NCBI GenBank assembly: GCA_001606155.1
Contig: LODT01000011.1
Span: 496,001 to 560,000, forward strand
Length of the DNA: 64,000 nucleotides
Reading direction: 5' to 3'
Source of the DNA: Tieghemostelium lacteum
Lineage: Eukaryota; Evosea; Eumycetozoa; Dictyosteliales; Raperosteliaceae
The translations under genes were made by a program, and so were the position numbers. The notes under the pieces were generated by a model. That model worked only from the letters and a program-made list of their open reading frames with translations. It searched no databases and was not told where the DNA came from. Below, piece by piece: positions 5,586 through 54,630 of this stretch. The number at the start of each line of letters is the position of its first letter. Position 1 is the stretch's first letter.

Positions 5586-7856
5586 ATGAATCCAAATAAT
5601 AATAATCAAACAACAATAACTACAACTACATCTAGCTCAACTAATATTAGAACACAGCAAGTACCCAATGCTTTTACACTTACTGAGGGTACGACTGCTC
5701 AACAAATCATAGATCACCTCAAAATTCCTGAGGGGGATGATAAATCAAATATTAGTAAATTTAACCTTAATGGTAGTTCACTATTGAATCCCGAAATAAC
5801 ATTAGATATTCTTGTTCGTACCCTTGGAATTTCTCTACCAACAACTTTATCATTACTTGCACTTAGACCCACAACCCCTTCAGGTATGTAAATTAAACAA
5901 CTATCACTAATTTAAAGACCTTTTGTTCATTTATACTAATATATTTTTATTCTTTATTTATTAGTTGATATTGAAAAATGGTTTCAAGTACAACAAAAAG
6001 TAACCTATCACCCTATAGAGACCTCAGAACTAGCTTTTAATTTTTATGATAGAGCCGATGCAATTAATGCAATATATGATGTCACTAAAAAACATTTACA
6101 ATCAAAACCAGGAGAGAGAGGTGAACATAAATTTCTTTTAGCTGCTGGTGCACCTGGTATTGGAAAAACAAGACTACTTTTAGAATATGGCCAATTGGTC
6201 CACCAACAACTTATCAATAATGAGGTTATTGATATTGACACGTTTATGTTAACATTATACATAACATTTGGAAATGGAAGTTATTGGCTTCCATCAGAGT
6301 CGGTAGAAACAGGATTATCCCTACGATTACTTGCTTCATACTTTCAAGTAAATTGGGATATTGTTAGAACAACAATTACCAAAAATGTTAATTTTATAGA
6401 AGCAATGGGTATAATAATGAATGATTTGATTCAAAAAGGAAAAATTAAAGACAAAGGTGCCATACTTTATCTTGGTGTGGATGAATTTCAAACCCTTCTA
6501 GTAAAAAGAAATGAAAATTATAACGATAAATCATTACTCAAACATTTAACAGCAATTATCGGTAATTATCTCCTACAGGGCAATAACGCATTTCCTTTAG
6601 TTCCAATTTTGGCAGGAACGTTATATTCTGAAATATCAGAGGTTTTTACATCTTCAGGTCATCCTTATTTTCAAATCCCACTAAAATTGATTAGTCATCA
6701 ATTTTCACTAGAGATGGTTTTCAAACATTATGAAAATAATATTGTAGTAAAAAACCTACTTGAACAATCTCAACATCAACTGGAAATGTGTTTGTATCAA
6801 TTCATTGGTTGGCCCAGACCTTTGGTATGGTTTATTCTGAATATTGAAAAATTTGTTCGGGATGACAATCAACATCTTCTCTATAAAGAAAACTTAATGT
6901 CCACTAGAAGTGCTATCATTGAAAGATATTCTTTCCCAATTACTGATATAGCAGAAATTTTTATTGCACATTCAATAACATTAACCTCAGTACATCCCAT
7001 GCAATGGGCACAAAAATGCGATCTTCTACAAAATCAATCATATGAACTTTTTGAGTCCATGGGCTTCATTACTAGACAAATAGATTCTGAACACCAATTT
7101 ATTCCAATCATGCCTCTTATATTTATAAATTGGAGTACTGTTCTCTCTAGTGGTCCTTTTAGATTATTACATGATTTATTAGAAAGTATGGATAAGGATT
7201 ATACTTGGTCTGATTGGGAGGGTTTTTGCTCAAAGTTTACACTTTTAAAATCTCAAATGTTTATTCGTCTTGGTAAAACTACTGTGTCTCTCCAAGATTT
7301 CTTTGGTAAACCTATTTCACCCCAAGAGAACTCACGGCTTCATTTTCAACTTGAATTGAAACCAGGTATGTATCTTTTATAATCCTTTATCATTTCAACT
7401 ACTAATATATATTTTAAAACAGGAGAATTCATAGAGTTGAAACATCAATACCCATCTTCTATCTTTAATACTTTTTATTTTAAAGAAGTTGGTATCAAAT
7501 TTGAAAATACCAAACTATTAACACACAGCAATGTTTTTTTGAACGCAAAGTCTGCTCCATGGGGGGATTGGTTCAGTATATATAATAAAAGTGGTTCAGA
7601 TTCAGCTATAGTTCTGGTTGGCCAAGGTAAACACAGAAAACAGAATACTCCACTAACTGAAAATGATATAATAGTTGAATATAACAAGATTAAACAACAA
7701 AAATTAGGTTTACCAACTCATACTTTTATGGTTTTAATGACCAATACGAAGGCTCCATCAAGAATTTCACCCACACCTTATACCTTTATTATTGATAATG
7801 TAAATAGTGGTTCATTCTTTGGTCCAATTTTCAATCAAATTATTCCTAAATTCTAG
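5586..7856 (+). CDS. Crinkler-like effector: P-loop NTPase with C-terminal nuclease-type domain
   Basis: Three exons, 5586-5883, 5965-7365 and 7423-7856, join in frame and give 710 residues; the gene looks whole. The start is the first ATG, since the longer frame begins at a TTG. Residues ~40-95 look like a small header domain. A P-loop (GAPGIGKT, about residue 161) is followed by a STAND/AAA-like NTPase region and a helical region. The third exon has D-S-A-I-V-L-V-G-Q-G-K, matching the D...QxK core of restriction-endonuclease-fold domains. This order (header, NTPase, nuclease) is that of the Crinkler (CR) effectors described in oomycetes and other eukaryotes. Assignment to that class is an inference from architecture; a diverged AAA ATPase with another C-terminal domain remains possible. 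Confidence 0.6.
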
Positions 7857-15200: not shown

Positions 15201-17569
15201 CAGAATCATTCCCAGTTGGAAAATGGTTTGAAGTTAAAATTTTAGAATATGATAATAGTATTTTTGAAAAACAACAACAACAACAACAAGAACAAGAACA
15301 AACTAAACAACAACAGCAGCAACAACAAGATCAGAAAATGGATAGTATTCCAATACTAAGTTTAGATTTAGAAATGTCTTTTAATGATAGTTTAAATCTG
15401 GCAAATAACGATCAAAATGATATTGAAAGTCTTGTAAATTTCAATAGTGTAAATAATAATAATAATAATAACAATAGCAATAGTAACATTAGTAATATAT
15501 GTTTGGTTAGATATAAAGTAGTAATGTTTAATATGAATAAAACTAAAGGATTCTGGGTAAATGATGACGAATTACGTATGGAGTTACCAGTAGGTGAAGA
15601 GATATGGGAGTTCTCTGCTGACCCTCTAGTAGATGAACAACAACAACAAATTCAACAACAACAACAACAAGATATTGCAAATAATGGTATTGAAGGTATC
15701 TACAGTAATGCATTACAACCACCACCTGAACTCCAGTCACAGGAACCTATGGACTATGTCAGTAAATTGGTTGATTCACTCATTAACTCTATTGATAAGA
15801 TAAAATTACAGAATTGGTTAGAGTCTCGAATTGAAACCATGACACCTTCGTCCACTACCAAATTCCCTTACGTTGAAGACCCAAAACTTCTCAGTAAAGA
15901 GCTGTTGGAGATACCTGCATTCTCTCTAGAATACCTACATTCTCCTAGTGGTAGTAGTTCCATAGTTCAAAAACAAAAATGTTTCATTGAGATTATCACA
16001 AGTCACTTTGATGAAAAGGATATTGTTTCCATCAATTTCTCTTCGATTTTTAGTAATTATCAATTCATCCCAGATATAAATGATAAGACATTTATAATAC
16101 AATTATTTGATAATGTATTAAAGGCTTCTGATCTATCTGTAACATCAATAGTTTCCAAAGTATCTGTAAATTCATCAGCTACCTCTCCAACACCAACTAG
16201 CAATCCTGATGATTCCATTTTAGTAAAGAAAGAAATTCCAACTATTAAACCTGAAATTAAAAATACCACAACAATAACGAGTAATAATGGTATAAAACCA
16301 ACAACAGCTCCAATTAAAACTCTACAACCACCAACAGTTACAACATATAAACCTTCAACCACAACTGCACCAATCCCACAACCAACAACTTCAAAACTTA
16401 AACCAATATCAACTTCAACAAACCAACAGAACATTGTACAAACTTCAACAACAACTAATACCACCACATCACCAATGATTTCAAAACCTCAAAATATTAC
16501 CAGAAATCCAGTTACTAATACTCCTGGTATAGTTAAATCTACTACAACACCAATGGTTTCAACACTACCTACTAGTAACAAAACAACACAACCAATTACC
16601 GTAACTAGTAAATCAGCACCTGGAGTAAATAGTAATGTTAAATCAGTTACCACAACTCCTGGAACTACTACACCACCTCCTGGTACAACATCTATGAAAG
16701 CACAACCAATTGTTTCTGGACAACCTATACCATCAAATGGAAAGATACCACCTCAACCAATCTATGCCAAACCAAAAATGGTAACATTACCAAATGGTCA
16801 GAAAATATATACATGCTCATGTTGTGTACATAAAAATCCACCAGGTACTGTAATCCCACCACAATACAAAATTGCAAGTATACCACCTGGATCTAAACCA
16901 CCACCTGGTACAAATACTACAACAGTCGTTAATGGTGTTAGTAAAGTAGTTACTACTACTGCTACCACTGGTGGATTACCAGTTTCTAAATTACCACCTA
17001 CAATTCCAAACTCAACACCAAGAGTACCATTAAAAAATGCACCAGTTACAACTACTACTGCACCAACTATAATTTCTAAACCAACAGGCACAATATCTAC
17101 AACAATATTGAAATCAACACCATCTTCAACAACATATATCCCACCCTCAACCTCCTCATCAACTACCTCAATGACTTCAACTATTTCTACCAATGGAAGT
17201 AGTATTAATTTAACCACAACACTATCAACAACGACTACAAATATTCCACCAACACTATCTACAGTGGTATCAACTAGTGTAAATACCAATTTCAATTTAC
17301 TATTTAATCCAGATAAAAGTTCTATACCATACAGATTATTTATTGGAAAGAGAGAATTACTATTAGAATGCAGAAGACTCTTGAGAATACAATGCACAAG
17401 AATCAGCCATCTCAACAAACAAAATATTGAAGGTGGTAAGGACACTGCTGAGGTTATAACAAGAATGAAAGAACTCACAACTGAGTTATCTCAATTTAAG
17501 TACCTCCTATTAGAAACTGCCTCCGACAGATACACAATTTATAAAAAATCTATTGGTGTACATTTTTAA
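12296..17569 (+). CDS. Large SANT/Myb-domain nuclear protein
   Basis: Three exons, 12296-12624, 12741-12907 and 12972-17569, join in frame and give 1697 residues. Long Asn, Ser, Thr and acidic stretches surround three ordered parts. A SANT/Myb-like domain lies near nt 14630-14790 (FQPTIWHEEEKMFFKELF ... YGRDWPIISVLM ... SPTQVKSFY) with the spaced aromatic residues of that fold. A conserved module near 15150-15600 (FYFYKNPESFPVGKWFEVKI ... VRYKVVMF ... KGFWVNDDEL) looks like a Tudor/chromo-type barrel interrupted by a Gln/Asn insert. A helical C-terminal domain follows near 17320-17560. The SANT-plus-barrel order suggests a chromatin or transcription regulator. I cannot tie it to a named complex. 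The first exon is almost wholly low complexity, so its start is less certain. Confidence 0.8.
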
Positions 17570-17587
17570 ATAAACAAATTAATTTGT

Positions 17588-17638
17588 CATTTATATTATT
17601 TTAACAAATTGAACTATAGTTTATTACATCTAATCACG
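17588..17638 (+). repeat. Left copy of ~50-bp direct repeat flanking the mosaic pseudogene
   Basis: This 51-base sequence recurs at 18156-18205 in the same orientation with a single-base length difference. The right copy covers the stop codon and the last bases of the 18.2 kb F-box-like gene. The left copy sits directly after the SANT gene. Confidence 0.85.
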
Positions 17639-18155
17639 ACTTGAAAAATATGATTCCATATTGTCTTAATTATTAATTATTAAATAGATTATTGGCTATA
17701 GAGTGTTTAAGGTAAGGAGTGTAATATAGAGATCAAGTTCCACACATTTTGGAAGATGTGTTGTCTGTTTACTATAACATCATTACAATATTTTATAAAT
17801 TTCGTTGAGACTACTTTAAATTTTTTAAGAATAATAGTAATTCTCTGAAATTTCTCCTACCTATTCGTTGATAATCGATAAATCCAGAATTTTTTACTAA
17901 CCTAAAGAGTGATGTTACAATTAAAATATTTAGATGATGATTAAGAAAAGTTTATACTGTCAGATATACTTGATCTGGATTTTGTAGGAATTAAAATTGA
18001 TACTTTAGAACCTACTATCATCACCAATATCTCATAAAAAATTGGTTTAACATCCTTAAAAATTTAATTCTATTTACAATTACCAAAGATGTTTTCGAAA
18101 AGTTGTTGCATGAGTGCACTGAAAGACTCAGAGATCTAAAACAAATTTAATAGGG
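17639..18155. pseudogene. Mosaic pseudogene built from pieces of three neighbouring genes
   Basis: Three host-gene fragments can be seen side by side. Bases 17699-17758 match 24423-24482 inside the second F-box-like gene, in the same orientation. Bases 17881-18110 match the 3' coding part of the first F-box-like gene (about 18346-18585), but inverted, with frame-breaking changes and in-frame stops. Bases 18117-18149 match the first exon of the SAMHD1-like gene (about 26470-26510) with a gap of about nine bases. Bases ~17772-17823 are a dispersed repeat also present at 53764-53816. No open frame survives. The ends are marked by a 50-bp direct repeat. The identities were judged by eye. Confidence 0.8.
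17772..17823 (+). repeat. Dispersed repeat, copy 1
   Basis: About 50 bases (core TTTTATAAATTTCGTTG) recur at 53764-53816 with a few differences, 36 kb away and in an unrelated context. It may be the end of a mobile element; the family is unknown. Confidence 0.7.
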
Positions 18156-18205
18156 CATTTATATTATTTTAACAATTGAACTATAGTTTATTACATCTAA
18201 TCACG
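18156..18205 (+). repeat. Right copy of ~50-bp direct repeat
   Basis: Partner of 17588-17638. It includes the stop codon region of the 18197-21918 gene, so the left copy is probably a duplicate of this gene's 3' end. Confidence 0.85.
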
Positions 18206-21200
18206 TATAAATAATTGATTATTAGCAGTTTTATAATTGTAAAAATTACATTTTTCAAAATCATAGATTGGAGTAATTTTATCTTTAATTTTTCTTTGTA
18301 AAACTACATATTTTAAAGTTGGGTTTAAACTACAATCACCTAACAACTTTTCGAAAACATCTTTTGTAGCGTAATTAGAGTGAGAATAGATAATTTTTAA
18401 GGTTGTTAAACCAAATTTTTTTGAGATGTTAGAGATGATAGTAGGTTCTAAAGTATCAGTGTTAATTACTACAAAATCCAGAACCATTTTATCTGACAGT
18501 ATAAACTTTTCAAAATCATCATCTAAATATTTTAATTGTATCATCACTCTCTTTAGGTTGGTAAAAAATTCTGGATTTAATAGAGCCTTTAGTCTATTTA
18601 GACCACCACTAAATAAAACCTCTGAACTATTTATCAATAATGATTTCAAAGGTTCAACATTACTAGGAATTTCAGTTTTTGAAGTGATGGACAGTGTATT
18701 GATAAAATTAAAGTCATTAAAATGTGATTTTCTAAATTCTTTAAGGTTTTGAAATACAATTTCCATAGCATCAGTTATTTTTTTACAACCAACGAATGGG
18801 TAAGAGAAATTGACCAATTTCAGGGAACTATTATTTTTTAACAATATATTAATATATTGTTGTACACCTTCAATATCCATAATATCTAATGCCAATTCTG
18901 GGTCAATTTGTAGATGAAATGTTTCTATACAATGACAGTATGATATTAAATTGGTTATAGATCCAATTGATAAAGCATCTCCAATGAAAATAGATAAAGA
19001 GGTAAGATTTTTCATTTCTCTATTGACTTGGTACATCATTTTTGACTGTACTTTCAGTGATCCTAGTTGATAAAATATATACTCTACATCTCTGTAATGA
19101 AATCTATTCAGTGCTTCATAATTCATATGATAACATCCATGGGAAAACAATGACCATTGTGATACTGAAAATGAATATTTAGATAAATAATCAGATGATA
19201 CTGTTTTACCACAATATGATATTTTAACACTGTTAAATGTCTTGGCAACACCTTGAAAAAATATCTTTGAAATCAGAGCTAGTTCAATAATCTCTTTTGG
19301 TTTCACAGATGGATCCCCACAAATGAATGAAACTATATTATGAATAATTAAATTTGGAACATAGGGTATAGATTCATTGATTTCTTGTTCTGTTGGTGGT
19401 GGAGTATAAGTTGATTGATAACCAGTCTGGTTGGAGTCTAGAAGAAAATGCAATGGTGGGAAATTTCTAATCAGTGACAGAATATTTTCTTTTTTGGATT
19501 CCTCTTTAATCTCTTTAAATTGGGTCAGAAAGAGATTCACTAGTTGTGGACTTAGCGGTATGTTCTTTTTTATTAATGAAATTAAATGCTTGGTTGAGAA
19601 TACACGATGTTGAGAGAGTTTATATTGGGAGAGTATTGTGCTAACAATAGTTTCATGGCAATATAAATGTTTAATTTCTAAACCCCTTATATCCTTTACA
19701 ATCAACCACTTATGCATGCACCAAAATCTATAAAGTCTATCTTGCTTAGAAACATTGCTTGTCGTATCTAATGACTTGAGAAATTCCACAATCATTTGTT
19801 TATAAGTTTCAGATATATTATTTAGACTGTACATCAGATTCACTAAGATTTTCAAATCAAAGGAATCATGATGATGTGGTGATATAAAATAATGTAGTAC
19901 ATAGTTGTGAATTTGTCTATCCAAATTTACAAATGATTTCATTCCCTCCAGTAAATCTAAAGTACCATGGGCATTTACATCTTCAATCATAGAATCTAAA
20001 TAATCAATGATATATTCCTCTCCATATTGACTATACTCCAAGAAATATTTAAAGATTTTAATTTTATCTTTATATTTCAATTTGATGTCCATCAAAATGA
20101 ATAGAGTGTCTAACTCTTCTCTGCTTTTGATAAATGGGAGGATTGTATCCAATGACACTTTGGTTCTATTTTTGTGTGATCTAGGTTGTCTATAAATCTT
20201 TACAAAAGATTTTAGAGTTCTATCCAATAAACTACTGGCCTTTTTAGTATGATTACATTTAATTTCAGTGTAGAGCTTTAATAAAGTCTCATAGAAATGG
20301 TCATCTCGAATTAACCATTTATCCTTATCATTAATGGCACTTGTGAAATTTTCAATCAAGTTGTTATATTCAGATTTTGGTTCTACTGACATGATATATT
20401 CCAATAAGTGAATATAGTGCTGTGAAGAGTTGTTAGCAATTTTTAAAATTGCTTGGTGATACTCTTTACATCTTGGTGATACATTAAAGACTTTTCTAAT
20501 GGATGGTTTCAATAGAAGTCTGTTAAAATATACTAAATAGTTTCTAGGGAGCTTTTCAAATAATTTCAGTATATTCTCCATTCTGTACATAGTGTGTTGT
20601 GGAATGATAGACATTACAGAAATAAAGAGCACCCATCTCATTGATGCTGGTAAATATGGTAATATTTCTGTATCTTTGAAAAATACATCACTGAACTCTT
20701 CTAATTGTTTTATATTATTGGTTCCATATCTATTTAGGAGACTTATCAACAAATGACCAACATTAGTATCTATCAATTCATCTTGCATGATAATATGATA
20801 AATTTGGTCTAAAGAATCTATAACTGATTGAGAATCTTCTAATAGGTATACCAAACCAATGAGTACTTTAACTTGATTTTTAGGAGACTCTATAACCTTT
20901 GGCAATAGTATAGATAACTTCCTTTCAATTAGTTCTTTACCATAGTACTTGTACAGTTCTGAAATGTAGTCTTTAATTTGGGTAAATGTGGTGGAGTGAG
21001 ATACCTGGATGTGACCATTTGGATTATGACTATTATTATTATCAGGTAGTTCGAATATTGTAAATCTACAAATCAATGGAATCAATTGTATATAATCACT
21101 CTGTAATGACTGTATATCATCAAGTGTAAGACTCTGGAATGTATATTTACATAGATACAGAGTTATATCATCTAAAGTTTCATAATCGTCATATTTCTCT

Positions 21201-21918
21201 GAAGAAATAGCCCTATCATTTCTAATCAAAACTTGAATTATATTACGAATATTTTCAACTGTTAAATCTCTTTTTTCATTAACAAGTGATTTATCTTTAG
21301 TATATACACTAATTTTTTTGAAATATTTAAATGTGACATAGTCATAGAAGTATAGATTAAATTTTGATATATTTACACTTCTATCACATTCTATTATAAA
21401 CTATAGTTGAATGTAAATATATATTGAAATTAAATAGGGTTTTTTTTATATTTCAAACATACTTTACAAAGTAAATTAAATGGTAACCACTCTTCTTTAA
21501 AACAATTCGGTGCAAAATAACTTGCCTGTACATTTTTAATGATTGCATTTCTGATTTTTGGATCTTTGGATTGAAGTAGTTTTGGTAAGAATGAATTTCT
21601 AAACCAGACATTTGGTGAAATATCAGTATGTAACAGTATTTCTATTCTTTTATTCGCAATATTATTATCATTTCCATCACTATTTGGATCAAAGTCATCT
21701 ATCCATTTGAGATACTTTATAAAATACATATATTCATCCGGGAAGTTCCTTTGCAATAAATCTGCCTTAGCTTCCGCATTATCCTCATTGTCACTATCTA
21801 ACCAATCTTGAAATTCTGTATCAATAAATTCATTAAACCTTTTTGAATCAACAATAAGATGTGTTGTGTTAAAATGTTCGTTTAATTTAAATATATGTGG
21901 CCATCGTAAATGCGCCAT
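18197..21918 (-). CDS. Large F-box-like family protein, paralogue A
   Basis: Exons 21918-21463 and 21400-18197 join in phase 0 (donor GTATGT, acceptor CTATAG) and give 1219 residues. The second exon is open well upstream of its first ATG, and the junction (LLCK|FIIECD) matches that of paralogue B, so the two reading frames belong to one gene. The first ~600 residues look all-helical. An F-box-like segment follows (YVPNLIIHNIVSFICGDPS ... EIIELALISKIFFQGVAKTF), and then ~350 residues with leucine-rich-repeat-like rhythm. F-box/LRR proteins usually select substrates for SCF ubiquitin ligases; that role is inferred here. Its 3' end was copied, inverted, into the adjacent pseudogene. Confidence 0.75.
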
Positions 21919-21998: not shown

Positions 21999-24900
21999 TT
22001 ATTTATTGATCTTGATAAAATATTGATTATTGACAGGTTGAAAACCACTGAGATTAAGAGTAACCAATGAATCAAATTTGATATTTGTATTCATAAAATA
22101 AACATTGGTGATTGTTGGATTCTTACTGCAATAACATAATAGTTTTTCTAGTTCCTCAATAGTTACCAAATCGATATTTTGCATATAATGATTAATGGGA
22201 TGATAGATTACTTTAAGAGTTTTTAAATTTTCTTTTTGAGAACAAATGTCATAAAATCTGTACAATTCTATAACACGAGAATGAATGGTCAGAGTTTCAA
22301 TAGTATTAAGATTGGAAAGAAGTTTCTCTGGAAATGAAGAAAATTCATTTTCAATCTCCAATGAATTCAAATTTGGAAAATACTCTGGAAGAAACCAGGG
22401 TGCCGTAGGTTGTTTAAAATCTAAATGAAGTTTGGTACAGTAATTTAGTGCAGTCAGATAATCATGTACTTTTTGAGTATGTTGATTAAAATATTCAATC
22501 AATAGTTTGTTGTGGGATTTAAAGTTATTTTGAGGATTATTCATTTCAAACTCTTTAATGCTTTGGAACACACCATCTAAAGCATTTGTGAGTGGATAAT
22601 AAAGTTTTAACTTTCTTAGAGACTCTTTGTTATTCTGAAACAAAGCATTGAGGTATAGTTGAATATTATCAGATTGTTTAAGTTGATCACCCCTGATTTT
22701 AATGTACATTCTAAATGAAACTATACCATGACAGAATGATAATAAATTACAAATTGTATCATTAATGGAGTTGGGAAAATTAAGATGAATTGTCAATTTT
22801 GTTAGATTTTTCAATTCCCGATTGACTTGATATATCATACTTGTTGTATTCAAATTTAGTGATCCCAATTGATAGAATATATCTTCGGCATGTTGATAAT
22901 TGAATCTTGAGATTGAACTATAATCCATATGATAACATCCAACTGAAAATAGGGACCATGGTGAGACTAAAAATGAATAGGTAGATTTAACCTTTGCAAT
23001 CGAAGGTATTTTAACACAGTTAAATATTTTGGCAACACCTTGGAAAAATATCTTTGATGTCAGAGATAGTTCGAGTATTTCTATTGGTGTAACTGAAGGA
23101 TCTCCACATATGAATGAAACTATGTTCTGAATGATTAAATTCTGAACATATGGTGTTGATTGATTGAGATGTTGTTGTGGGATAGGCGAATGGAATGATC
23201 GGTGTCCAGTTTGTTTAGGGTCAAATAGAAAATATAATTGTGTAATTTGTTTTTGTCTAATGAGAAAGAGGATGTTTTCTTTTTGGGTACTTTTAGTCTC
23301 TTTAAATTGATTTAGAATTAGAGTTGTTAGTTTTGGACTGAGTATCTTTACTGATGAGAGATAAGGTAGTAGGAGCTTAGTGAATTCCACGTTATGATCT
23401 GATAGTTTATATTTAGTTAGAACGTTACCAACAAAGTAACTGTGAACACATAAACTTTCATGATCATTGGTACAGTGATTACATTGGAGAGTCACATCAA
23501 ATAACTGTTTATGAATGGCATCAAAAATTAATAAATTTTCACTTTTTAATTGTTTGGCATCTTTCATTGCCTCTATAAAGGATTCAATATACTGTTGATA
23601 GGTCAATGTCATATCATTTAAACTTAGATATAAACTGGCAACTACTTCAACTTTAATATTTGTAATACTACTTGCTTCTATGAATTGAGGTAATTGTGAG
23701 AGAAGATCTTGAATTTGGGGTTCTAAATTGATGAATGATTTCATTTGGTCTAGAATCATTGCAGTTATTGGAAATACATCGATATCTTCAATCATCGAAT
23801 TCAGGTATCCAATGATATAGTCTTCATCCACCAAATTCAAATCCAGAAAATATTTAAAGATTTTAACTCTACTAGTTGGTGAGAGATAGGTATCCATCTG
23901 AATAAAAAGATTATTCAATTGTTTTAAATCCTTTATATAAGGAAGAATAATATCTAATGAAAGTTTTTTCCTTCTACCATAAGGACCTTTATAGGCATAC
24001 AGTTTTACAAATGATTTTAGAGTTCTATTAAATAGATTGTTGGCTTCTTTCAGATGTAGAGGTTTAATTGCAGTATAGAACTTTAACAAAACCTCATAGA
24101 AATGGTCATCTCGAATTAAATATTGCTTTCCACTCAAAGGGCTTTTGTTTCCTTCATTGAGTGTTTTGCTAAAATTCACAATTAAATTGTGATATTGAGA
24201 TTTTGGTTCTACAGATATTATATACTCCAACAAATGAATATAATGTTCCTGTGACTTATTGGCAATACCTTGAATTTTTTTATGAAATTCTTGAAATCTT
24301 GTAATCTCTCTAAAGGCTTTTTTAAATGGTGGCTTTACCAATAGCATATTTAGGTAAATTAAAAAATTACTTGGATAATTATTAAACACCTCTAGAATGC
24401 TGTCCATATTTTCAATTGTGTATTGAGTGTTTAAGGCAAGGAGTGTAACGTAAAGATCAAATTCTACACATTTTGGAAGATGATAACACTGTTTCTTTTC
24501 CTCATAAAAGAATCTGAAATGGTTGGTGTTGGTGATTCCATACTTATTCAATAGTTTTGATAATACAAATCCACCAGGAAAAGAAATAGTATGATGTTCT
24601 ATTTCGTGCATGATTTGGTAGATTTCATTAAGATGTGCTTTAACACACTCTGAATCCATCATGTGATATACCAATCCTAAAAATATTTGGTAGTCTCTTT
24701 TAGCTGAAGATAGTAGTTTGGGAAAGAGGTTGGTAAACTCCTGTTCAATGAATTCCCTTCCATAATGTTTGATTAGGTTACTTATATAATCTCTTTCTAG
24801 TTTGTTTTTACTATTCAAGTCCTGATATATATCATTATTTGTATAACCGTATTTCATTCCTGGACTTTCCAATGGTAATGCGAAAGCACATATCAATGGC

Positions 24901-25783
24901 AACAATTGAATATAGTCATATTTTAATGACTGTATTTCAGCACTATTCAGATTCTGAAATGTAAATTGACACAGAATAAAAGTAATTTCATTCAATTTCT
25001 CTAGGGTCTTGCTTCTATCATTTACTGAAGTATATAAACTCTTATCCAATGGTGATATTATTGGAAAAAATGAAACCACAGCTTGAATAGTACTCCTAAC
25101 TAACTCCACATTCAGATTTCTCTTTTTGTTTACTTGTAAACTTTCCTCCACACGCTTTTGACTCAAATTTGAAAAATTACAGTTATACTTGAGTTTTGAA
25201 AAATACATTGAATTAACACTCATCAATAGAAGGTCAATACAATTGTGTATTGGGTTACTTTTTATAGCCTATTTTAAATATTAATTAGTTAATGATGAGA
25301 TTTTTTTATTTGGATTTAGATGCATACCTGACAAAGTAAATCATGAGGAAACAATTCATTTTTTAATTTAAAGTTTTCTTTAAATTCTATTGATTGGTAT
25401 AGTGTGTTGATGATCTCTGGATCTTTAGATTGAAGTAATTTTGGATAGAATCCATTGTTATATAATACCATAGCATCTACGGAGTTTAATAAAAGTAATA
25501 TTCTATTATATATTTTGTGTTTATTTGGGTCTTTGATATCACCAGGTACATGAATATAGCTGAAATCAAATTCTTCAATCCATTTTAGATAGTTTGTCAA
25601 CAGTAAGAAATCTTCTAAATTAACTAGAATTTTAAAAAATTGTATTTTACTTTGTAAATTTTCATTACTATCTATAAAATGTTTAAAACCATTATCTAAA
25701 AATTTTGAAAATGTTGATGAATCTTTTATTTCAGATTGGTATATCAAAATTTGTAATTTTATTTGTTCTATATCCCAACCCAT
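21999..25783 (-). CDS. Large F-box-like family protein, paralogue B
   Basis: Exons 25783-25328 and 25268-21999 join in phase 0 (donor GTATGC, acceptor AAAATAG) and give 1241 residues. Exon 1 is 456 bases long, exactly as in paralogue A, and ends at the same LLC-Q/K position. The layout is the same: helical N-terminal half, an F-box-like segment (YVQNLIIQNIVSFICGDPS ... EILELSLTSKIFFQGVAKIF) and an LRR-like C-terminal third. A and B are tandem and in the same orientation, about 80 bp apart, which points to local duplication. Sequence divergence is large outside the F-box-like and IYVRDDHFYE-type blocks, so the duplication is old. The SCF-adaptor function is inferred from the F-box-like segment only. 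Confidence 0.75.
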
Positions 25784-26252: not shown

Positions 26253-27792
26253 ATGAATAATATTCATAGTTATCCGTTAAATGATGATGATTATGGAGAC
26301 GAATTTATAGTTGATACTTATCAACAAAATACACCATCAAAATTCCCTTTTCCAAATATGGCAACAAGAGTAAACAAACCATTGAACTCATATATAAAGT
26401 CATCAAAGGTTGTAAACGATGTTATTCATGGTCATATGGAGATACCAAATTATATATTAGAATTTGTAGACACTGAACAATTTCAAAGACTCAGAGATCT
26501 AAAACAAATTGGTACAACCAATTTTGTATTCCCATGTGCCAACCATACAAGATTTGAACACAGTCTAGGTGTAAGTCATCTAGCTGGTAAATATATAGAA
26601 AAAATCAAAGCCTCCCAACCTGAGCTTGAAATTACTCAAGATGAATTAAAATTTGTTAGAATTGCAGGTCTTTGTCATGATTTAGGTAACTATTTGAACA
26701 AAATACGAATATATACGTTTTTTTATATATAAACAGATTTTTTAACACACAATTATTGGATGATTTTATTTATTAGGACATGGTCCATATTCACATTCAT
26801 TTGAATCATGGGTACAGAGTACTGGTAGAAAGTTTCATCATGAAACAATGTCTATAAAAATGTTAGAATGGTTGATTGATGAACATGGTTTGGAATATTC
26901 AACTGATGATATTAAATATATAAGTAATTTGATTACAGGTACACGTCAAGGAAAAGAAAGAAATTTCATTTATGATATAGTTGCAAATCATCGTAATAGT
27001 GTAGATGTAGATAAATTTGATTATCTAGCTAGGGATTCTTATTATTTGGGTAGATCAATTGTATGTGATTTCACAAGGTTGATGGAATTCAGTAGGGTAA
27101 TTGACGATGAGATTTGTTATTGCAGTAAAGAGATTTATAATCTATATGAACTGTTTCATACAAGATACAGTTTACACAAGATTGTGTATACTCATAAAGT
27201 TGGAAAAGCTATTGAATTTATGATTTCAGATGCCTTTTCAGAGGCTGATCATTTCCTGGGAATATCAGATCAAATTGAGGATCCAAGGGAGTATATTAAT
27301 CTCACTGATAGTTTATTGAAACGTATTGAAACCTCAAAAGAACCTCAGTTGGCAAAGAGTAGAGAGATTATAAAAAACATTAGAAATAGAAATCTCTATA
27401 AATTTGTTGATGAAATTCTAGTGGGTTCAGCACAAAAGATTCCAGATGATTTTGCAAAGGAGATTGCTAAAGAAGGAAATGGTCTAGTCCCAGAAGATAT
27501 CATTGTACATCGACTGAAACTCAACTATGCCTTCAAAGATAAAGATCCAGTTCAACAAACTCACTTTTACACGAGATATGATAACACCAAGAAATTCCAA
27601 ATCTCCAAAGAACAAACATCTCAATTGATCCCTAACCAATTCCAAGAAGAAAGAATTCGAATATTTTGTAGAAATAAAGAAAAGTTTGAAAATGTACAGT
27701 TAGCTTTTAGAAAGATTCTCAATAACTATGATATCTCTCCAAATCCTTCATTTACAGCTAGCCCATTTAAACAACAACCACAAAATGAATAA
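26253..27792 (+). CDS. SAMHD1-like HD-domain deoxynucleotide triphosphohydrolase
   Basis: Exons 26253-26685 and 26777-27792 give 482 residues; the intron splits the glycine of the HDLG-H motif. The order of motifs matches human SAMHD1 closely: KVVNDVIHGH, DTEQFQRLRDLKQIG, NHTRFEHSLGVSHLAG, AGLCHDLG-HGPYSHSFE and SVDVDKFDYLARDSYYLG. These supply the metal-binding His, His-Asp and Asp of the HD domain. SAMHD1 hydrolyses dNTPs to nucleoside and triphosphate, so the expected role is control of the dNTP pool. No SAM domain is present: only ~55 low-complexity residues precede the HD region. The residues at the SAMHD1 allosteric sites were not checked individually. A piece of exon 1 is found in the mosaic pseudogene at 18.1 kb. 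Confidence 0.9.
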
Positions 27793-45834: not shown

Positions 45835-46167
45835 TTATGGCCAAAAAGAAGAGCCACAATATAAATAGAATAACTCTTTTATCAAGCTATATTTAATTTT
45901 ATTTAATTTTTTAAATATTATCACCTTATTCTTCAGTGGGCAACAGTCTGGATATGGAAGATTTGGATTACCTGGAATTTCAATATAATTTCCTTCCTTA
46001 ACTATATGGCAACCTATATTCAAATTATTAATAAATTTATATATATATTATCTTTTTTAAATAATATTTTATTAATATTTACCATCTGCACATGTTGGTA
46101 TTGTTTGTGTATATACTAATGAAAATACTAAAACAAAAACTATTAAAACTAAAATATTTAATCTCAT
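45835..46167 (-). CDS. Small secreted cysteine peptide 1 (SVWC-like)
   Basis: Exons 46167-46083 and 46013-45835 give 87 residues. A signal peptide (MRLNILVLIVFVLVFSLVYT) is followed by a short mature peptide with the block PGNPNLPYPDCCP. It is a tandem paralogue of the gene at 46855-47136: same intron position and phase, and near-identical signal peptide and PGNPNLPYP block. The CCP pair after YP resembles the single-domain von Willebrand C (SVWC) fold, but only four cysteines lie in the shared region. After CCP this copy runs on for ~35 unrelated residues, which may be non-coding if a further intron or earlier stop is used in the cell. Confidence 0.65.
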
Positions 46168-46854
46168 TATATTGTATCAAATAGATAATTGAATTTAAAC
46201 ACAAAAAATATATTTATCATATTTATTCTTCTCTTTTAAAATTCAACCAACACAATTTGAAAAATACTAAAAGTGTGGTATAAACAACCTAAGATATATA
46301 AAAAATAGATTGAAAAAAGAGATTTATTTTTAACGTTTTTAAAATAAATAATGGGAGAATTCAATAGTAATAGATATTATAATAATTTTTTTTACATATA
46401 ACTGAAATTTCTATAAAATTGCACGGTTAAGTGTGTGAAACAATCCTCTAAGGGTTTTATTTAGCTGGACGAAATACCTCTGAAAGATAAATATAAAAAC
46501 CTTGGTATATTGATACCTCATACTTTTAACCTTTAGAGATCACACCAGCTAGAAAATACAACCCAGATCAACCAAACAAAGGTATTCCTTTTGAACTATT
46601 AGCTATTCTCTCGATTGACAAAACAAATTATAAAGGTTATTGTAGTGAATCAACACTATAAAGGTTTCCGAGTTAATATGGTTCATAGATAGTGAAGAGG
46701 TGTGTCATGCAAATAGATGGTAAATTTGATTATTATAAAAAAATTATTCTACATTAATAATTCTGATTTTTAACTAAAATCGAAATCAAACTAGTTACTC
46801 TTTAATATCAAGGAATTTAACTTTAATTTTATTTTTTTTTAAATAATTATAAAC
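46168..46854. other. Spacer between tandem peptide genes, with possible transposase remnant
   Basis: The part next to gene 1 (to about 46420) is duplicated upstream of gene 2 (to about 47400), so it belongs to the tandem unit. The part from about 46430 to 46740 is unique and less AT-rich. On the plus strand, 46536-46658 reads as 41 open codons with ARKYNPDQPNKGIPFELL and NYKGYC, which resembles the DDE region of piggyBac-type transposases. Stops surround it. The identity is tentative. Confidence 0.35.
46266..46280 (-). promoter_or_regulatory. Conserved promoter block ACTAAAAGTGTGGTA, copy 1
   Basis: These 15 bases lie about 100 bp upstream of the first cysteine-peptide gene and recur identically at 47237-47251, about 100 bp upstream of the second. 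The surrounding promoter is less well conserved. The GTGTGG core resembles the G-rich boxes of developmentally regulated Dictyostelium promoters. Confidence 0.5.
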
Positions 46855-47136
46855 TTATACATCAGGTTCTAATGTGGGGCAACAGCCTGGATATGGAAGA
46901 TTGGGATTACCTGGTACTTCATGATATCCTACTTTCCAATATGTAGCACAACCTATATTCAAATTATTAATATATATATCATATTTTTTAAATGTTTTTT
47001 ATTAAAATTTACCTAAAGCAGTAACACTTCTATCCTCGTGATAGGTGATTTCTGCACACATTGGTGTATTAGTTTGTGTATAAACTTTGGAAAATACCAA
47101 AACTAAAACTATTAAAACTAAAATATTTAACTTCAT
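46855..47136 (-). CDS. Small secreted cysteine peptide 2 (SVWC-like)
   Basis: Exons 47136-47013 and 46952-46855 give 73 residues. The signal peptide (MKLNILVLIVLVLVFSKVYT) is almost the same as in the neighbouring copy. The mature part has C...GC, then the block PGNPNLPYPGCCP and a short acidic end. Exon 1 has 13 residues more than copy 1, before the shared intron. The stop is close to the CCP pair, so this copy probably shows the original length of the family. The likely role is an extracellular peptide, for example signalling or defence; SVWC-type proteins in animals act in such settings, but no function is known here. Confidence 0.75.
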
Positions 47137-47236
47137 GATATTGTATCAAATAGAATATTGAAAGTTATTTTAAACACACAGATATTTTATTTATCACACT
47201 CTTTCTTTTTTATAAATTCAAACAACTTGTAAAATT

Positions 47237-47251
47237 ACTAAAAGTGTGGTA
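47237..47251 (-). promoter_or_regulatory. Conserved promoter block ACTAAAAGTGTGGTA, copy 2
   Basis: Identical to 46266-46280 and at the same distance from its gene. Confidence 0.5.
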
Positions 47252-47479
47252 GAAATCAACCAATGATAGATAAAAGATGAAAAACATTTTGAAAAAGGAG
47301 AATTACTTGTAACATTTTGTGCTTTTTAATATTAATAATGGGAGAATTAATAGTAATAGATATTATTATAATTGTTTTTGACATATCTGGTGTTTCTATA
47401 TAATTGAGATCGATTCTATTGGATTAATTGAAATATTTTTATTTTTATTGAATTTTTCATTTACAACCAAAGATTAGAA

Positions 47480-52517: not shown

Positions 52518-54630
52518 ACTTCTTATTGTTGTGTAATCTCTTCCTGTTTTTTTTTTTTATTTTTAGTTATGTGGGGGGAAAACACACACAAACACTAGAT
52601 GATCAATGGTAGGAAAAGATGGAGGGTGTGTACAATGAAGATATCTTTTCCTGATCTATCTAGAAATAAAAAAAAAAAAATAAATAAATATGGATTATTA
52701 GATTTTAAATTAATTTAAAATAAAATTATTATTAGAATAATGAAAAAAAAAAAAAAAAAAATAATAATATTGTTGTAAATAACAAGTAGGATATAGGGTG
52801 GGGCTGTTGTTGTTGCAGATGAAAATGATGATCAAATATGTAAATATGAAATCTGAAACAGAATATGTGATTAATGATGTATGCTATGAATGTTTGAAAT
52901 TTGAAAAGAGTGTGTGGGGTTGATTGATGACTGAAGCTTAGAGGGGAGATTTTAAAAATTTTTATGAAAAGAAAAAAAAAACAATATGATTATTGGGGAG
53001 GGAAATATTATAAAATGATCAATCAGATACAAGGGGAGGTTGTGATGTTATATGGTTTTTGATTGTATATATATAATGGTTTCTTTGAGACTGGTTTTAG
53101 GTTTTGGCCCAATCTATATTCATTGTCACTTTGTTATTGGAGGATGATGCTATTTTTAAAAAAAAAAGTGAAATATGTAATCTCTCTCTCCTCTCTCCCT
53201 GTACAGCGACTCTACTACTACTGTAAATTGTGTATTTGAAAATTTAAAAAAAGGAAATAAGGGATTAATAACAATGAAAGAAAAAGGAGTAAATGATTGC
53301 AAAAAAAAAAATCAAAAAACCCAACCAACTGATGCCAATTTGCTCAAAAAAGAAAGATTTTAACGAATGCAGTGTTTTTTGGTTTTTTGTGTTTTTGATG
53401 GATCTTGACTACACGGACCTTTAATTGGATAAGGACATTGACAAAAGTTAAAATAATACAACTATGGTTTTGTTCAATTGATTAAATGTATATATTACCC
53501 TTTTGATTCTATATTTTTTTTTTAATTTTTTTTTAAAATGTTTAGTTTTGGTGATAATAGATATTTATTCACTACTACAAGAGAGTGGAATGAAAAATTA
53601 TATTCTCCTACTTCTTTGGTGTGTTTTGAATATAATATGTATATATATTTTAAATGTTTTTACTGTGATTTCTGTGATAGCAACTTATTTATTTTGTTAA
53701 TAAATAGAGTGTCACTAGGGGGTACAGAAATGGTAGTTAGTACTGCATAATAATATTTGATTTACAATAACATCATTAAACTATTTTATAAATTTCGTTG
53801 GGACTACTTTAAATTTCATCTCAATAGTGTTTGTGGGTGTATGTCACTATCATTTAGATGGTGTACACATATAAAACAAAACTATATATTTTAGTTATTT
53901 TTTCAACAACTTGCTATTGAAATCAATACACACACACACAGATAACATTTATTCATAAAAATATGTATAGTGAAGAATTCTTTTTATATGTTGTGTATAG
54001 TAGATTTGACCCCCATTCACCACCATTTATATAAAAACACAATTTTCAACTCCAACACACTAAATCTAAGAGGGTGAAAATGAAAATTAAAAACACAGCT
54101 AAACTAAAATGTTTAAACAAAAAAGAAATCAATGAATTTTCATTATTATCATAGATCATTAATTTACCTTTTGTTTCTTTGTTTTATATATAACTATTAT
54201 TTAGTGTTAATTAATGATAGTCAGTGCAAAATAGTTTACTTTTACCTGTCTTTTGATAAGATTCTATAAAAAACCCTTAAATCTAAACAATTATAAAAAT
54301 CTCTTGAAATTTTTACTGTGAAATCTATAAATAACATAGATCCTGTCCTATTTGTAATCTCCATCTTAGTGATTAACTGATTTTTAGAAAGAAGAAACAG
54401 GAACTATTAGTCTTCTTATAATAATAATAAGGAGACTCCTAATTTAACGATTGATTTATTTCTTTTTAATTAATTTGTTATTGTGGTTTTAGTTTTTTCT
54501 GAATTGTAATGTGTTTTTTTACAAGTATCAATTACTTTTGTAAAACTCCTCTTCTCTTCTTTTGAAAAAAGGATTTTGGCGCTATGTGTGTTTTTAGATA
54601 TCTATTGTATTGATATTTTTCATACTATTA
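52518..54630. other. Long gene-poor region (2.1 kb)
   Basis: The longest stretch without a supported gene. It lies upstream of the RAMA-SET gene and downstream of FAM32A, both on the minus strand. It contains long A and T tracts (52668-52760), a pyrimidine-rich tract at 53179-53200 and a short open frame at 53539-53750 with no recognisable homology. A possible 5'-leader splice acceptor (poly-A then CAG at about 52545 on the minus strand) suggests a leader intron for the RAMA-SET gene. The dispersed repeat copy at 53764-53816 lies in it. Confidence 0.5.
53764..53816 (+). repeat. Dispersed repeat, copy 2
   Basis: Matches 17772-17823 in the same orientation (shared core ATAACATCATT ... TTTTATAAATTTCGTTG ... 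ACTACTTTAAATTT). The bases on both sides differ between copies. Confidence 0.7.

Follow-up and report, generated by a model that had tools for sequence, protein, structure and literature searches.

The window that we analysed is a stretch of 64,000 nucleotides from Tieghemostelium lacteum (positions 496001-560000 of contig 9, C9, in an assembly of 23.3 Mb and 43 contigs), and its AT-rich sequence contains introns and codon repeats. A mosaic insert of 500 bases (17639-18138 of the window) sits there in the spacer between two convergent genes. The open reading frame (ORF) of the left neighbour ends at 17569 and has a Myb-like Pfam match that stays below the curated cut-off (21.7 compared to 24.4 bits). 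The right neighbour, gene 1, is located on the minus strand with its stop codon at 18197-18199; its large ORF (18197-21229) is intact and encodes 1010 amino acids. Next to it lies gene 2 (large ORF at 21999-25226, minus strand), the protein of which is 43.5% identical to that of gene 1. Each of the two genes (18197-21918 and 21999-25783, respectively) appears to consist of a long ORF preceded by a short one. The family of gene 1 is large, since at least 41 protein matches exist in the genome (45 of 63 candidates scored), 40 of which are free of stops, the only match with stops being the mosaic's own copy. Pfam searches with the four ORFs of the two genes yielded no family above cut-off, and F-box families were absent from the results up to E = 1. 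Further to the right follows a SAMHD1-like HD-domain gene on the plus strand (26253-27792, two ORFs) with HD and HD-associated domains above the Pfam cut-off (PF01966 and PF19276). These three genes and a non-coding site outside the listed ORFs (53761-53816, plus strand) are the donors of the mosaic.

The blocks were located by self-alignment of the window and are given on its plus strand. The insert begins with 39 bases of filler (17639-17677, no strand assigned), for which no source was found. It is followed by a probable copy of 20 bases of gene 2 (17678-17697, from 24026-24045), which is a weak match of 19/20 bases and is colinear with the next block, a gene 2 copy of 68 bases (17691-17758, from 24415-24482; 86.8% identity, 83.3 bits). 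Then comes a copy of the non-coding site of 56 bases (17768-17823; 92.9%, 84.2 bits). A probable inverted copy of 54 bases of gene 1 (17817-17870, from 18848-18790; 71% with 11 gaps) is again colinear with its successor, an inverted gene 1 copy of 229 bases (17879-18107, from 18579-18342; 85.8%, 275 bits). The last block, copied from the SAMHD1-like gene (18122-18147, from 26485-26510), matches its donor in 26 of 26 bases. A hand count based on the coordinates assigns 370 of the 500 bases to the strong blocks and 430 to all blocks together, and about 210 and 370 donor bases are skipped within the copies of gene 1 and gene 2, respectively. The donors occur in both orientations, and none of those found is more than 36 kb from the insert, the nearest being at 234 bases from its copy and the others at 6.7, 8.3 and 36 kb. 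All four strong donors are located on the right-hand side of the insert, which is weak evidence for one domain or fork.

The significance of these blocks was evaluated with 300 dinucleotide shuffles of 17570-18210, each aligned with the remaining sequence of the window. The maximum among the 300 shuffles was 45.5 bits, which all four strong blocks exceeded (275, 84.2, 83.3 and 48.2 bits). An earlier note on this DNA had named similarity at chance level as an objection to its own reading; for the four strong blocks chance is ruled out by this test. The two weaker blocks scored 32.8 bits each, which equals the shuffle median (32.8) and is not outstanding. They are regarded as probable because of a narrower test with 200 shuffles, in which none (17817-17870 against gene 1) and two (17678-17697 against gene 2) of the shuffles were as good, together with their colinearity. 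For the region 17639-17690 as a whole, 123 of 200 shuffles gave an equally good local match, which is no more than chance, and 26 bases of the filler matched only themselves genome-wide at up to three mismatches.

Genome-wide searches pointed to local donors. Two places each were found with 53680-53900 (itself and 17768-17823) and, at up to three mismatches, with the 26-mer of the SAMHD1-like block and with a 28-base core of the flanking repeat described below. A search with the whole stretch returned four places, none of them outside the window; the lossy nature of this search is apparent from the 26-base block and the flanking repeat, neither of which it detected. Dispersed copies, as expected of a transposable element insertion, were not revealed by this lossy search outside the window. 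The earlier observation stands in its main part, namely a patchwork beyond chance of fragments from two tandem genes and the SAMHD1-like gene in mixed orientations (87%, 86% and 26/26 bases identical in the self-alignment). Two of its details have to be given up: a search of the 23.3-Mb genome found a single further copy of the supposed dispersed repeat at 17768-17823 (53761-53816, 93%), and the label 'F-box-like' for genes 1 and 2 is at odds with the Pfam result. An artefact of the assembly has nothing specific in its favour, and a divergence of 7-14% between blocks and donors is not produced by chimeric assembly of one genome; the 26-base block is the only one identical to its donor. We regard this explanation as practically negligible.

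In a large gene family that is tandemly arranged at this locus, the insert could be taken for the remnant of a third tandem paralogue, which decayed with inversions and deletions, especially as the left copy of the flanking repeat contains a stop-codon region resembling that of gene 1. However, genes 1 and 2 share only 53% DNA identity over the copied region of gene 1 and 48% over the copied region of gene 2. Two different parents are therefore needed for copies that are 86% and 87% identical to genes 1 and 2, respectively; no single gene could match both to this degree, and the HD-domain gene and the site at 53.8 kb are outside the family altogether. A copy that once served as a gene is expected to accumulate its mismatches preferentially at third codon positions. 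The large gene 1 block has 17 mismatches in 226 gap-free sites, which are distributed evenly over the codon positions (6, 5 and 6) and comprise three synonymous and 13 nonsynonymous changes and one stop, compared to a random expectation of 20%, 74% and 6%. Judged from this flat distribution, the block appears to have been dead on arrival. Moreover, the single parent with one order and orientation over the full length, which characterises an ordinary pseudogene, is absent from the mosaic. Given these data and the lossy genome search that detected nothing outside the window, descent of all blocks from one other paralogue is extremely improbable, and the statement of the earlier note that this is not a simple decayed gene is supported by the low identity of genes 1 and 2 and by the several donors.

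A feature which was absent from the earlier note is a direct duplication of 67 bases bracketing the insert. Its left copy (17572-17638, plus strand) is 92.6% identical to the right copy (18139-18205, plus strand), with three mismatches and two gaps in 68 columns. The right copy holds the stop codon of gene 1, and by homology the left one consists of spacer and the end of gene 1 including its stop. The ancestral spacer between both stop codons, as inferred from the left copy, would have measured approximately 60 bases. The first nine bases of the repeat match exactly and bases 10-19 match poorly, i.e. the repeat has either decayed somewhat over a length of 67 bases, or its true start is near 17590 and the match of nine bases is a coincidence. 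These nine bases, AAACAAATT, are shared at the right-hand junction by the flank and the SAMHD1-like donor, being also the end of the 26-base block. Among 200,000 random junctions a shared run of nine occurred with a fraction of 0.000205, or about 1e-3 when six joins are allowed for. The other five joins have shared runs of 3-4 bases in windows that are tens of bases wide and are thus uninformative. With one informative join out of six, microhomology is no general proof of the mechanism. Directly visible in the alignments are the blocks with their order and orientation, the duplication and the shared run of nine bases.

The age of the pieces bears on the question of whether they arrived together. 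Mismatches from left to right amount to 3/66 (flank), 1/20, 9/68, 4/56, 7/51, 17/226 and 0/26, altogether 41/513. Homogeneity was not rejected (likelihood ratio 10.0, simulated p = 0.15), so that one date is compatible with the data, a result that does not prove a single event; a mixed age is possible. Divergence appears slightly higher in the gene-derived blocks than in the flank, even though stronger constraint is expected for the donors of these blocks. Hence, several separate local copying events are compatible with the sequence as well. The spacer could have tolerated several independent insertions or duplications at different times; gene 1, for instance, might have been copied in inverted orientation first and smaller patches might have followed. 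The spread in divergence (13% in the gene 2 block, 4.5% in the flank and 0% in the piece of the HD-domain gene) as well as the internal donor gaps of about 210 and 370 bases would be explained in this way. Apart from the homogeneity result, this explanation has to cope with the fact that the two copies of the flanking repeat enclose all pieces together, and with the rarity of such patches elsewhere. The latter was estimated in a survey of 264 kb of one contig (C9:396001-660000), with a minimum length of 300 bases for the non-coding stretches and a limit of 40 kb for local blocks, after low-complexity filtering (2 of 73 HSPs removed). Eight of 73 non-coding stretches have at least one local block, and three or more were found in four, the mosaic and three stretches with 4-5 blocks in one repeat cluster (-31.5 to -22 kb in window coordinates). 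The sole stretch with two blocks adjoins this cluster, so that no other non-repeat stretch in the 264 kb has even two local blocks. The mosaic is therefore exceptional within the surveyed 264 kb, and its accumulation through separate events is improbable.

The repeat cluster itself (C9:465-477 kb, or -31.5 to -19 kb in window coordinates) contains repeats in both orientations. The single 211-base unit examined has 31 genome-wide matches on many contigs, and the cluster is probably a mobile-element graveyard.

The combination of several donors, both orientations, flanking duplication, nine-base microhomology and donors within 36 kb supports the template switching that the earlier note had proposed. 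We consider it probable that the mosaic results from a single episode of repair, during which synthesis switched repeatedly between local donor templates. The nearest named mechanism for this is MMBIR/FoSTeS: several templates can be identified in both orientations, and they are near (0.23 to 36 kb). The single episode, its direction, its trigger and the enzymes involved are inferred. The trigger would be a break or a stalled fork in the short spacer of the two convergent genes. Repair synthesis may have proceeded from left to right as far as 17638 and afterwards switched templates several times, using in this order gene 2, the site at 53.8 kb, the opposite strand of gene 1 and the HD-domain gene. 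The return to the original spacer would have occurred 67 bases upstream of the departure point, by re-annealing via AAACAAATT. The predicted outcome is a tandem duplication of 67 bases with a templated insert of about 500 bases at its junction. Both neighbouring genes retained a 3' end in this process, which may be the reason why the scar survived. A replicative origin, as implied by MMBIR/FoSTeS, is putative for such an old scar.

A different origin of the same structure could be a staggered double-strand break, in which overhangs of 67 bases were filled in and the filler was captured or copied by end joining, either patch-mediated or through polymerase theta; the duplication would then stem from the fill-in and the insert from copying that was started and aborted several times. 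Precedents for its parts are described in several articles: small tandem duplications of less than 100 bp, as the duplication here, arise through Pol alpha-primase fill-in of staggered breaks but, unlike the mosaic, contain no multi-donor insert (PMC8355091), and patchwork insertions are theta products in helq-1 mutants of C. elegans (PMC8654963). The worm insertions resemble the mosaic in containing several copied stretches per insert, and tandem duplications are also reported for these mutants; however, the worm stretches map to the break flanks and are accompanied by deletions, whereas no deletion is evident here. Natural insertions in rice, which were attributed to patch-mediated repair of double-strand breaks (Vaughn and Bennetzen, 2014, as summarised in PMC7407515), belong to the same size class of 10-1000 bp and likewise join duplications with pieces of several nearby places. 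The flanking direct duplication of this type is present at our locus, but the donors within 200 bp that this summary gives for rice are absent (nearest 234 bases), and distances up to 36 kb together with blocks of up to 229 bases exceed the rice pieces. Furthermore, the annealing over nine bases at the return junction is expected of a template return and superfluous for a simple fill-in. Regarding the theta route, DNA_pol_A profile matches occur in the genome on contigs 2, 21 and 24 and a POLQ_helical match on contig 30, never at the same place. An ORF that unites the helicase and polymerase domains was not found among these matches, so that polymerase theta is only a candidate here. For D. 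discoideum, PolQ and ligase III are listed in PMC8529158. Overall, we regard the staggered break as rather unlikely.

Returning to template switching in one repair episode, the closest comparison is with human rearrangements. According to PMC6902434, MMBIR/FoSTeS is recognised from duplications with several join-points and microhomologies of 2-9 bases, and inverted nearby templates are described for such rearrangements in PMC8421209. The mosaic shares the duplication junction, the several join-points and the nearby templates in both orientations; a shared run within the range of 2-9 bases is informative at its return join only (nine bases). The mosaic differs from the human cases so described in that the duplicated segment is only 67 bases long, old and fixed in the assembly, and that five of the six joins have no informative microhomology. 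Many of the inserts targeted by the design of MMBSearch are located within 100 bp of their template according to PMC8421209, whereas the donors here are 0.23-36 kb away.

The mosaic is a clear, old example of a scar type that is already known. Such scars usually decay before they become readable, and the locus offers a legible natural example in a social amoeba in which one insert combines four donors from up to 36 kb and ends in a short duplication. Among the papers listed by our literature searches there was no dictyostelid case of this kind, although one may have been published elsewhere. As a single instance the mosaic alters no current view. If a genome-wide survey of relatives found more of them, donor distance and orientation would indicate the responsible repair pathway.

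The inverted gene 1 copy lies downstream of its own donor, and the minus-strand RNA of 17870-18590 has a calculated folding energy of -287.9 kcal/mol compared to -117.2 kcal/mol for 20 shuffles, a difference that is expected of any inverted copy. A read-through RNA of gene 1 might fold into a hairpin of more than 200 bases and feed small-RNA silencing of gene 1, which would make the scar a putative self-regulator; we consider this very improbable. Two further observations concern other parts of the region. The stretches 45873-46421 and 46797-47406 form a tandem pair with 72% identity and without a long ORF, and pieces related to this pair are located at C9:391529, C21:310822 and C26:422206. 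Finally, 67 bases at 5882-5948 are 82% identical, in inverted orientation, to 85567-85629 in window coordinates.
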